This document shows, in pieces, positions 36,944 through 59,308 of a DNA stretch of 64,000 bases. Made by a program: the position numbers and the translations under genes. The stretch spans positions 1,412,291 to 1,476,290 of the forward strand of contig KK106985.1 of NCBI GenBank assembly GCA_000611775.1, read 5' to 3'. The stretch is from Umbilicaria muhlenbergii (taxonomy: Eukaryota; Ascomycota; Lecanoromycetes; Umbilicariales; Umbilicariaceae). The notes beneath the pieces are model-generated. The model was not told the DNA's origin. It saw nothing but the letters and a program-made list of their open reading frames with translations, and did not search any database. Each line of letters starts with the position of its first letter. Positions within the stretch are counted from its first letter, which is position 1.

Positions 36944-39211
36944 ATGTTCCGCGCTCAGCAGAATGCTTTCGATGACGCCGTTGGTAAGCTGCTTGCATCA
37001 AGCGTGATTGATTGACCTGCCAGGCAGCTGCTCATCTCCGAACAGCAAAAGCCACGGATGAGAACCTCACGTCGGAGAACTGGGAGCTCATACTGGTATC
37101 TCTCAGTCTTCGGACCCTTGATCGAACCCGGCTAAGTCACGGTAGGATGTTTGTGACCGAGTAGCAGCAGAAGACACAGGGTGGGCCGCTCCTCTCTCCG
37201 CTGCTGCTCATACAGACCTATTTCCTGACTATTATCGGATTGTCTAGGCCCAAAGATGCCGTCGCTTCGATGATCAAGCGCCTTGCCCACCGGAACGCGA
37301 ATGTTCAGCTATACACTCTCGAGGTAAGGACAAGGTACACGCAACCATGATGACCAGCGCTTACCAAGAAACATAGCTGGCAAACGCGCTCTCGCAGAAT
37401 TGTGGACCGAAGATGCATACGGAGCTAGCCTCAAGGAGTTTCACGGACGCTTTACTACGACTAGCTAATGACCGCGTACGTTGAACGATCCGAGGTAGCA
37501 ATAGAGTACACAGTCCATGGCTGATCTGGTGCAGAATACCCATCAGCAAGTCAAGGCCAAGATCTTGGAAAGGATGGCCGAATGGGCCAAGATGTTCTCG
37601 AAAGAACCGAACCTGGGTACTATGGAGCAAGCGTACATGAAGCTCAAGAGTCAAAGTGAGCGCCCAGTACTGGATCGTTGTTAGGCAAGCTCATTCACAT
37701 ACAAACCAGACCCAAATTTGCATCCGCCAGTAGCACCTACCAAGCGCCAGATCACCGATGTAGATCGGCAAAAGGAAGAAGAAGAGCTACAGATGGCGCT
37801 TGCACTGTCGATCAAGGACAAGTCGTCAGCTGCGCAGTCGTCGACGCCTATACACGGACAGACAACATCCTCTCCAGAATCCGGAGCATCTCAACAAGTC
37901 GCTCCCCCGCAGCCGTTACCATCGGGGACCACGGCAGCTACTGTGTCTCGCGTACGTGCCCTGTTTGACTTCCAGCCTTCGGAGCCTGGCGAACTTCAAT
38001 TTCGAAAAGGCGACATTATTGCTGTGCTCGAGTCGGTCTACAAGGATTGGTGGAAGGGTTCACTAAGAGGGCAGACGGGAATATTCCCGCTAAACTATGT
38101 GGAGAAGCTGTCAGATCCCACTCAGGAGGAGCTGCAGAGAGAGGCACACATGGAGGCTGAGGTCTTTGCTGAGATCAAGAACGTCGAGAAGCTGCTTACT
38201 CTTTTGAGTACGAGCAGCTCCGAGTTGAATGTGAGAGACAATGAGGAAATAACGACCTTATACCACTCGACCCTGGCCATAAGACCCAAGCTCATCGAGC
38301 TAATAGGGAAGTACTCACAGAAGAAAGGTATTACTCAGTAGCAAAATCTAGGTCCAAAAAAGCTAAGAGAATGCATAGATGACTTCACACAACTGAATGA
38401 GAAATTCATCAAAGCTCGCAGAGACTATGAATCGCTATTAGAGGCCTCCATGTCGCAACCCTCACAGTCGCCGTACCTTCGTCAAGGGCAGCCAGCATAT
38501 GGATACGGACGAGGTGGCTATCCCACACAAGGACCGCCCCCCAAGCAAGATCCGGGGCAGTACTATTCTGCAGGTCAGTCTCCAGAGTATCTGGAATGGC
38601 CATGGCATGTACTAACCTGGTCAGACTCTCGTACTCCTGAGCCATATAACGCTCCCCAAAACGGTCCTGCTCCATTCTACGTCGTCGGTCAAGGAAACTC
38701 AACCCAGCAATCATCGCAACAAGCTCCATACTCGCAGCCAGGGTACCCCTCTAACGATCCTCGCAGTCGAGTACCTTCAGGCGGCAAGCCACCTCCTTCG
38801 TCTGATCCCTACCACCACCGCCCACAGTCAACCTACGACAATCCCCAAGAACTCAGCACATCATCGTACGCCAGTCCTACAGAAGTCCACTCGCAAAATT
38901 TCCCTTCCCAGAACCCGAATAACGACTATTCCCCAACCGGCTACTCGGCCGCCGATAATCAAAACCATCAATATCATGGCGGCCAGCAACCTTTCAATCA
39001 AGCTCCAACAACAACACAACAACAACAACAGCAAGCACCACCGAGCCACCAGCCACCTCAAGCTCCAAGTCCCCATCTGCAGCAAAATCAATACCCAACC
39101 CCTAGCTCGGGACCCCCGCCTGGAGGATATCAGGCGTATCAAGCGCCGAGGCCACAGCAACAAGGGTACGTTGCGGCGGCCGGGGCAAACCCGAATGATT
39201 TCTACCGGTGA
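36944..39211 (+). CDS. HSE1: ESCRT-0 subunit Hse1 (STAM homologue)
   Basis: With Vps27 it forms ESCRT-0, which gathers ubiquitinated cargo on endosomes. Nine exons: 36944–36983, 37046–37095, 37146–37180, 37248–37323, 37377–37475, 37535–37655, 37710–38327, 38379–38573, 38625–39211, giving 606 aa. Exon joins rebuild the VHS domain ([20 protein letters not shown], then NWELILDVCDRV and [20 protein letters not shown]). Next are a UIM ([16 protein letters not shown]), an SH3 domain ([20 protein letters not shown], with [19 protein letters not shown]), the GAT-like helices that pair with Vps27, and a Pro/Gln/Tyr-rich tail. The last intron is 51 bp, open in frame, with a perfect TACTAAC branch; retention would add 17 residues. 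Its partner gene VPS27 is 17.7 kb downstream. Confidence 0.95.
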
Positions 39212-39809
39212 TATGAGCGTTCAAATTGGGTTTGAATAAATGGCGATATGGCGTTTGGGGGTGGACATATGGTCAACCACAGTGGATGGGGCGCCTCCTC
39301 TTTTCGCATGTGCTTTGCTTGTCCATGAATTCTTTTTATTTTTTATTTTGGATTACCCTCCTGGCGGATCACCACTGCAAGGACATGCGCATTCACGACA
39401 GCCCAAAGACAGGGGGAAAAACAGATAACACGGTCTTGTCTTCTCCCCTCTCTGTGTCTCTCTCCGGAACATGTATGTACATTGTCCGAAGAAAAAAGAA
39501 CAGTGTAAGCACGGTCTATCATCTCAGGCTGCATGCACCACATGGCAGGAAAAAAGACTTCGGTCATGCACGCACCCGATCCTCGCCGGCAACCAACATA
39601 TGCGTAATTTGTGCTCCGTATGGATTGACGTCAGCACCTGGCTTCGGTGTTGAAGAAGTAAAGCATGCAGGCCTCCAGACCCATCTATCCCCACCCCCAC
39701 TTAAATCCGCTTTTCGACCGCTCCCATCCACCATGTTCCCCGTCTTCGGCCAACTTCCCCCCCCCTCTCTCCCCCCTACCCCGAACACATACCCCGGTGC
39801 GCCCGGCCT
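39212..39809. other. Convergent 3' region, HSE1 / cytochrome b5
   Basis: 600 bp between converging genes. Open frames here run into the antisense of the cytochrome b5 exons and show no domain of their own. Confidence 0.5.
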
Positions 39810-56885: not shown

Positions 56886-59308
56886 ATGGCGGGGTGGTTT
56901 GCTTCGAATTCAGCGCTCGATGAGCAGATCGAGCGTGCCACTTCTTCAAGCCTGTATGTTCCGAAAGTGATCCCGCAGGTAGTGCTCACATATACATGGC
57001 TCAAGGTACTGACGTACCTTCCAGGGAGGATATAGCCTTGAATCTGGAGATTTCCGATGTCATAAGATCCAAGAGCGTTCAACCCAAGGAGGCCATGAGG
57101 TCGCTGAAGCGGCGGATAGGGCACAAGAACCCAAATGTTCAGCTTGCGACTCTAAAGGTATGGCATTGCAAGGCAGACGGAAACTTGTAGCTAATATACG
57201 TCGCAGCTTACCGATACCTGTGTCAAGAACGGAGGGTCTCATTTCCTGGCAGAAATAGCTTCGAGAGAGTTCATGGACAACCTGATGTCATTATTGAAGG
57301 CCTACGGAGGCGCTGCGGCAAATGACGATGTAAAGAATAAGATACTTGACCTCATTCAGACTTGGGCCATAGCTACACAAGGTCGCGTCGAGCTATCCTA
57401 CGTCGGGGAGACCTACAGGACGCTACAGAGAGAAGGCTTCCACTTTCCACCAAAAGTCGAGATCTCAAGTAGCATGTTGGACAGCAGCGCTGTATGTAAT
57501 TCTACGCGCGCTATCAAGGCTCGACTAACAGGTGCTCCAGCCTCCAGAATGGATCGACTCGGATGTTTGTATGCGCTGTCGAACACCCTTCAGCTTTACA
57601 AACCGGAAACACCACTGCAGGAATTGTGGCAACGTTTTCGACGGGCAGTGTTCTAGCAAGTCCATCCCATTACCACATTTAGGAATAATACAGCCCGTCA
57701 GGGTGGACGATGGTTGTTATGCAAAGCTCACGGACAAGGCTCGTATTGGCTCAGTTTCGATGGAGAGGCCTGCCTCCAAGATATTTTCCAGTGTCAAACA
57801 TCGCACTTCAATGCAGCCACGTGATGCTCGGGTGGACGATAGTTATGATGAAGACCTGAAAAGAGCTTTGGAGATGAGTCTAGAGGAGGTCAAGGGACAC
57901 TCTGGTACTGGATATGTGTCTCAGTCTTCGTTGCAGACACAGCGAAATGGACCCACCTCCAACGGGACATCAAAACCTGCGAAGCCTCCAGAAGACGAAG
58001 AGGATTCCGAATTGAAAGCTGCTATTGCAGCATCACTAAAAGATATGGAGGAACAGAAGAAGAAACATGCAGCAACTCTCAAAGAACAATCCACGCATAA
58101 CTCGGCATCTGCCACGTCTGACTTTGTGATGCCGAAGAGGGATTATGAGCTGACCCTGGTTGAAGCGGAGAACATAAATCTCTTCTCCACCCTAGTCGAT
58201 CGATTACAGCATCAGCCTCCAGGAACGATCTTAAGGGAGCCACAGATCCAGGAGCTGTATGAGAGTATTGGGGCTCTAAGACCTAAGCTCGCGAGAACGT
58301 ATGGGGAAACAATGAGCAAGCATGGTACGCACATGCGCCATTAGTTCCGTGACGTCACTAATATTGGCAGACACCCTACTCGACCTTCATTCTAAGCTTG
58401 CCACTGTTGTCCGTTATTACGACCGCATGCTGGAGGAGCGTCTATCTAGCACATATAGCCAACATACCGTTAGTGGCTATGGGTCTTACGCGTCTCGACC
58501 ATCCTCGAACATGTATCCTCCTCTCACGTCGAACACAAATAACAGCCAAGGCGGAGCAGAAAGCTTCTACACTGGCAGTTCTACAGCTGCTGCAGACGTG
58601 TATCCTCAGCCACAGTCCAACTACCATAACTATCCACAGCCTCAGTCGACGTACATGACATATGACAGAGGCCCACCAACCACTGCTCCCAATCATGGAC
58701 AGACCAATCCGCCCGAGAACCAACGCTACCGACACGGGTACCAGCCGCAACGAGCACCAAGCTTTCAAGCGTATCCTAAATCGCCCATACAAGCACAAGA
58801 TGCACCATATTTTCCGGAGTCCCCGGCACAAGGTTATCAGCAGCCAGCTTCTGCCGTGCAGACCCCACCCGCATACCCATCGTCTCAAACGCAAATGTCA
58901 CCCCAGTTCGCAGACCCAGGTTCGTCGTACTATTATGGTACCCAAGTACAAGAACCACCTCCACATCACCAGCCTCAACAGACTTCTGATCAGCCGCACC
59001 ATCCAATGCAGCCGTCCCCAAAGCAATATCATCAGGGACCGCCACAGCCAGAGCCATATTCACCACAGCAGGCCTATCAAGCCCCTGCACCTCAGCAGAA
59101 TATTCCTCCACAGCCACAGCAACAAGGCTATTGGCAGCAGTCACAAGCTCCTCCGGCAGAGCCATATCCGCAGGCTGCATATCCACAAGCTCCGCAATCT
59201 AATATACCGTACCCGACAATGGGTTCTTATACACAAGACTCCTTCCCTTCTGCGCCAAACCACCAACCACAACCAAAATTGGTTGAGGAAAGCTTGATTG
59301 AGCTTTGA
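56886..59308 (+). CDS. VPS27: ESCRT-0 subunit Vps27 (Hrs homologue)
   Basis: Recruits ubiquitinated cargo and ESCRT-I to endosomes via PI3P. Exons are 56886–56953, 57025–57157, 57207–57491, 57541–58324 and 58371–59308, giving 735 aa. The VHS domain opens [20 protein letters not shown] and includes [15 protein letters not shown] and [13 protein letters not shown]. The FYVE zinc finger (from about residue 163) has [10 protein letters not shown], the PI3P motif RKHHCRNCG, and RVDDGCY at the end. Two UIMs follow: [15 protein letters not shown] and [15 protein letters not shown]. The GAT-like helical core [20 protein letters not shown] pairs with Hse1. The Pro/Gln/Tyr-rich tail ends in ESLIEL, a C-terminal clathrin box like yeast Vps27. 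All the expected parts are present. Confidence 0.96.

Follow-up and report, generated by a model that had tools for sequence, protein, structure and literature searches.

HSE1, a DOA4-type gene and VPS27 lie together in Umbilicaria muhlenbergii, probably as part of an inherited ascomycete gene-order block

We analysed a 64,000-nucleotide stretch of the Umbilicaria muhlenbergii genome (the window, C5:1412291-1476290, in a 34.8 Mb genome of 7 contigs) in which the genes for both subunits of endosomal sorting complex required for transport 0 (ESCRT-0), HSE1 and VPS27, lie close to a gene for a DOA4-type deubiquitinase. All three genes are intact and encode the main domains expected of them. Their proximity is probably a block of ascomycete gene order kept by descent, which we infer in preference to a cluster selected for joint regulation. 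Gene identities, coordinates, the places of other ESCRT genes and the identities of neighbours come from this analysis, gene positions in other fungi were taken from published papers, and the protein functions given throughout are predictions from sequence.

Gene models were built with a purpose-written spliced-gene finder, and the splice sites of HSE1 and VPS27 were then set by hand; the two-exon DOA4 model is the finder's unedited output. In the uncorrected models the VHS domain of HSE1 was partly missed and most of the VPS27 FYVE finger was spliced out. All 12 introns of the hand-set models are 46-71 bp long and bounded by GT..AG; such short introns, like the genes present, have the look of a filamentous ascomycete. 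For each of the three genes the finder's outer ends are identical to those of an earlier sequence-only reading of this DNA (the initial annotation), and the Pfam domains and solved-structure relatives described below agree with the identities that it had assigned. The main features are as follows.

36944..39211, plus strand: HSE1, predicted ESCRT-0 subunit and STAM homologue, 606 residues, 9 exons
HSE1 exons 1-5, plus strand: 36944-36983, 37046-37095, 37146-37180, 37248-37323, 37377-37475
HSE1 exons 6-9, plus strand: 37535-37655, 37710-38327, 38379-38573, 38625-39211
52581..56245, minus strand: predicted DOA4-type deubiquitinase with Rhodanese and UCH domains, 1174 residues, 2 exons (finder's model)
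56246..56885, no strand: intergenic spacer of the divergent DOA4-VPS27 pair, 640 bp from ATG to ATG
56886..59308, plus strand: VPS27, predicted ESCRT-0 subunit and HRS homologue, 735 residues, 5 exons
VPS27 exons, plus strand: 56886-56953, 57025-57157, 57207-57491, 57541-58324, 58371-59308

The HSE1 product carries the set expected of an HSE1/STAM protein, namely an N-terminal VHS domain (Pfam, 6.9e-36), a central SH3 domain (SH3_1, 3e-17) and a GAT-like core (GAT, 8.8e-13), and the closest solved relative of its VHS domain is that of STAM1 (4.2e-24). Between VHS and SH3 no UIM reached the Pfam listing threshold of E <= 0.001, and a UIM-like stretch is seen there by eye only. The possibility that the gene is not an HSE1 was rejected, as its VHS domain emerges after splicing. 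VPS27 and a single gene beyond the window were all that a genome-wide VHS search of unspliced DNA detected; HSE1 was missed because its VHS domain is split into small exons. VPS27 combines VHS (6.8e-40), FYVE (2.7e-19), UIM (6.9e-6) and the GAT-like core (Vps27_GAT-like, 7.8e-15) of the VPS27/HRS family. HRS is its best match among solved structures (1.8e-43), with the yeast Vps27 FYVE domain (6.1e-22) and ESCRT-0 core chains also matched. Its tail ends in LIEL, which resembles a clathrin box, and holds one PSAP at residue 716, of the P[S/T]xP form associated with ESCRT-I; motifs this short are weak evidence.

The DOA4-type protein joins a Rhodanese domain (1.3e-6) to a UCH catalytic domain (1.9e-55, residues 811-1168). 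Families were matched across the genome exon by exon, so that genes split between exons could escape; on this basis UCH matched 24 times and rhodanese six times, with both in one frame only here. Against solved structures the catalytic domain is practically tied between USP8 (5.1e-54) and USP15 (1.1e-53). A Bro1-binding YPxL motif within the catalytic domain is a trait of S. cerevisiae Doa4 that is not known to define the family. We found none within UCH 811-1168, the single YPxL lying outside it at residue 157, and therefore call the gene DOA4-type. A metazoan-type STAM-SH3-binding motif was likewise sought in this protein and not found.

DOA4 and VPS27 diverge from start codons that lie 640 bp apart, exactly as the initial annotation described. 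Among 25 genes of the locus, in a list trimmed by hand, nine divergent gaps occur, of 401, 640, 662, 874, 947, 954, 1015, 1065 and 1381 bp; only one is shorter than that of DOA4 and VPS27, and the shared region is therefore of ordinary length for the locus. HSE1 and DOA4 have three unrelated genes between them. Domains of the following neighbours come from Pfam scans, with names finer than the domain given by eye.

32754..36001, plus strand: STE20/PAK-type kinase gene directly upstream of HSE1, not an ESCRT gene; start of the model uncertain
39812..40661, minus strand: cytochrome b5-type gene (Cyt-b5, 5e-24) between HSE1 and DOA4; ends approximate, set by eye
41260..47119, minus strand: long ankyrin-repeat gene (Ank_2, 1.6e-13, first 610 residues scanned) between HSE1 and DOA4
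48501..50643, plus strand: uncharacterised gene (first 461 residues scanned without a Pfam match) between HSE1 and DOA4
59538..60194, minus strand: GST-like gene (GST_N_3, 3.5e-5) convergent with VPS27; left end and 229-bp gap approximate
60857..63535, plus strand: HBS1, predicted translation quality-control GTPase (HBS1_N, 6.8e-16; GTP_EFTU, 6.3e-53)
68906-70247 in window numbering, outside the window (C5:1481196-1482537), minus strand: LSB5-like gene (VHS, 2.1e-24)

The STE20 product has Pkinase (2.1e-68) and PBD (4.7e-22) domains in the last 631 residues of its model, the part scanned. The finder's GST-like model overran into VPS27 and was trimmed by eye. Genes 12-20 of the window are thus STE20, HSE1, cytochrome b5, ankyrin, uncharacterised, DOA4, VPS27, GST-like and HBS1, and beyond the window HBS1 is followed by an Hsp70 gene (BiP by eye), the LSB5-like gene and others. 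STE20 and BiP flank the HSE1-DOA4-VPS27 trio in this genome.

The LSB5-like VHS gene near the trio is new here. It lies 9.6 kb beyond VPS27, has an NPF near its C-terminus and a GAT domain that fell under its cut-off, and is a partial exception to the lack of further pathway genes at the locus. Five ESCRT/Bro1 families were searched for genome-wide, with Vps25, Vps37, Mvb12, Vps4, Vta1 and Rsp5 outside the search, and gave the following places.

Vps23: one place, on C1
Vps28: one place, on C1
Snf7 family: seven places, one of them weak, on C1, C2 and C6
BRO1: three places, on C4, C3 and C2, the one on C2 marginal
EAP30: two places, on C4 and C1

None of these 14 places, the weak Snf7 and the marginal BRO1 included, is on the contig of the trio. 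One further GAT-domain gene is at C4:2858394-2858624 (GAT, 1.6e-21), with a preceding sub-threshold VHS match (2.5e-4) and a proline-rich tail, and is a GGA or TOM1-like candidate; a genome-wide search for the alpha-adaptin ear gave two places on C1 and none at this gene. With HSE1, VPS27 and the LSB5-like gene it brings the VHS/GAT-family genes detected to four.

How surprising the proximity is depends on what is counted. Under uniform placement in 34.8 Mb, a named pair would lie as close as HSE1 and VPS27 (20 kb midpoint to midpoint) with p about 0.0012. Among 25 ESCRT-type genes, any pair would do so with p 0.30 and any trio with p 0.002. Since a reader could have noticed many complexes and pathways in this way, the proximity is surprising locally and not clearly so genome-wide.

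For other fungi we compared locus tags as given in papers; in the literature searched, judged mostly by title, we found no paper on HSE1-VPS27-DOA4 gene order. The S. cerevisiae genes are VPS27 YNR006W, HSE1 YHL002W and DOA4 YDR069C (PMC12203935), and by the open reading frame (ORF) naming rule they lie on three chromosomes. In S. pombe, vps27 SPAC19A8.05, hse1 SPBC1734.08 and ubp4 SPBC18H10.08c (PMC2885615) occupy two chromosomes, with hse1 and ubp4 on different cosmids of the second. In F. graminearum, Vps27 is FGSG_08545 and Hse1 is FGSG_08492 (PMC6379464).

The flanking genes were compared in the same way. We take YKR084C to be HBS1, and hence AFUA_2G04630 to be the A. fumigatus HBS1. The papers give A. 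fumigatus KAR2 as AFUA_2G04620 and STE20/PakA as AFUA_2G04680 (PMC3601126; PakA also in PMC6514138), and one of them pairs YJL034W, YKR084C and YHL007C with AFUA_2G04620, AFUA_2G04630 and AFUA_2G04680, respectively (PMC3289889). In A. nidulans, BipA is AN2062 (PMC6013550) and Ste20 is AN2067 (PMC3591445). By these tags STE20, HBS1 and BiP are mutually close in A. fumigatus, as are BiP and STE20 in A. nidulans. S. cerevisiae STE20 (YHL007C), the PakA orthologue, is five ORF numbers from HSE1 (YHL002W). To our knowledge STE20 has no ESCRT role, and its vicinity to HSE1 both here and in S. cerevisiae suggests a very old linkage of functionally unrelated genes.

We propose that the inherited block would have run STE20 - HSE1 - ... 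- DOA4/VPS27 - ... - HBS1 - BiP and would decay slowly through local rearrangement. Because the neighbourhood is old and mostly unrelated, and the oldest visible neighbour of HSE1 is a kinase gene, we take the position to reflect descent, by an indirect argument. The loose linkage of HSE1 and VPS27 that extends to Fusarium fits the shared descent of a chromosome segment. HSE1, DOA4 and VPS27 would then be ordinary housekeeping genes, each with its usual job: Vps27-Hse1 would hold ubiquitinated cargo at the endosome, and Doa4 would strip its ubiquitin towards the end of sorting. Across the 640 bp between them, DOA4 and VPS27 may have promoter chromatin in common, as may any divergent fungal pair spaced like this. 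In the established pathway, ubiquitinated cargo is captured by the VHS and UIM modules of Vps27-Hse1, the FYVE finger binds endosomal phosphatidylinositol 3-phosphate, and Doa4 deubiquitinates cargo late (PMC6379464, PMC3676800). The statement in the initial annotation that the three proteins act at consecutive steps is too strong, as Vps27 and Hse1 form one complex acting at the first step and Doa4 is recruited along with ESCRT-III towards the end (PMC3676800). As far as their domains can tell, the proteins encoded here would depart little from this pathway.

Several observations weigh against simple descent. Uniform placement gives the named HSE1-DOA4-VPS27 trio p about 1e-6, tighter than chance, and three of the four detected genes of the VHS/GAT family lie inside 33.3 kb, for which the same model, computed post hoc, gives about 1e-5. 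In F. graminearum HSE1 and VPS27 are 53 tags apart, a loose linkage expected by chance in about 0.8% of pairs on an assumed gene number. STE20 of that species is Fg09492 (PMC3245316), 1000 numbers from HSE1; with the ESCRT-0 pair linked and STE20 distant, the pair may hold together better than the genes around it. In N. crassa 88 tags separate STE-20 (NCU03894, PMC4239118) from grp78 (NCU03982, PMC4488935), which makes the block looser in that species. The comparison itself draws its DOA4 tags from yeasts only, and its HSE1 and VPS27 tags from S. cerevisiae, S. pombe and F. graminearum, not from Aspergillus or Neurospora.

One rival explanation is that selection keeps the trio and the LSB5-like gene together, because common chromatin, or one promoter serving DOA4 and VPS27 in both directions, holds the ubiquitin-sorting proteins in balance. 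It would accord with the finding that 33.3 kb contain the two ESCRT-0 genes, a DOA4-type deubiquitinase gene and another VHS gene, and with the loose linkage that the ESCRT-0 pair retains in F. graminearum. Yet six unrelated genes are interleaved from HSE1 to the LSB5-like gene, the 14 other ESCRT/Bro1 places are all on other contigs, the trio is unclustered in the two yeasts, and 53 tags is wide for shared regulation; we regard this explanation as unlikely. The functional linkage by position put forward in the initial annotation is accordingly not supported, given also the three unrelated genes within the trio and the ordinary length of the gap. A wider form of the idea, in which filamentous ascomycetes generally hold ESCRT-0, DOA4-type and LSB5-like genes within tens of kb, with DOA4 and VPS27 co-regulated and cargo capture co-dosed with ubiquitin recycling, seems slightly more doubtful again.

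A coincidence confined to this species or its nearest relatives, produced by recent rearrangements without ancestral linkage, is about as improbable as selection of the trio. The values for any trio (p 0.002) and any pair (0.30) in the 25-gene set speak for it, since such arrangements are expected over many noticeable pathways, but published tags put the flanking genes STE20, HBS1 and BiP near one another in A. fumigatus and BiP near STE20 in A. nidulans, and show a loose linkage of HSE1 with VPS27 in F. graminearum. The three VHS-domain genes within 33.3 kb could also recall a tandem duplication, in which one VHS ancestor gave rise to HSE1, VPS27 and the LSB5-like gene. The STAM and HRS/Vps27 subfamilies are, however, common to fungi and animals (PMC3473312, which does not mention LSB5 in its accessible portion), so at least their duplication predates fungi; HSE1 and VPS27 each match their respective animal counterpart best, and the three genes, spread out among others, share neither one orientation nor one set of domains. 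We consider such a relic very improbable, and inherited gene order remains the reading that we prefer.

Elsewhere in the window, genes 1-11 are glyoxalase, uncharacterised (no Pfam match), GEM1-like, CreC-like WD40, arrestin, BAR-PH, uncharacterised, ArfGAP, 2-hydroxyacid dehydrogenase (SER33-like), iron-alcohol dehydrogenase and multi-KH (SCP160-like). The CreC-like WD40 gene and the arrestin-domain (CreD/Rod1-like) gene follow one another at 6100-11771, with the CreC and CreD names given by eye. Both the CreC and CreD/Rod1 families touch ubiquitin control of permeases, and the pair raises the local tally of ubiquitin-related genes. Left of the window, at -9887 to -7009 in window numbering, a HECT ubiquitin ligase gene (HECT, 1.4e-75) is followed by a small CUE-domain gene whose match (CUE, 8e-5) is barely over the cut-off. 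A small gene at 2101-3057 is roadblock/LAMTOR-like by eye and gave no Pfam match in its first 215 residues.

Selection for the proximity, if it existed, would mean that a eukaryotic complex and its enzyme are kept together in the genome, which is rare, and the co-dosage of ESCRT-0 and Doa4 would become testable. The locus is mainly a caution: compact fungal genomes will hold some partner genes close by chance or descent, and the vicinity of HSE1 and STE20 suggests that old linkage is possible without known joint function.

Functional clusters, such as fungal metabolic clusters and the yeast GAL and DAL clusters, resemble this locus in that genes of one pathway are close and one pair is divergent. 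They differ from it in contiguity, with three unrelated genes here between HSE1 and DOA4, and in further pathway members, as the other ESCRT families matched on other contigs only (none of 14 places at the locus, the LSB5-like gene being the partial exception). Filamentous ascomycetes are known for retained ancestral neighbourhoods (micro- and mesosynteny), and the locus is like these in that its unrelated neighbours STE20, HBS1 and BiP are close in Aspergillus as well. Gene order between HBS1 and STE20 seems different, with about four tags between them in A. fumigatus, where tags presumably rise in steps of ten, versus seven genes here. The S. cerevisiae ESCRT-0 genes VPS27 and HSE1 and its DOA4 lie on three chromosomes, according to the published ORF names, versus one locus in U. 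muhlenbergii, and encode the same main domain sets.

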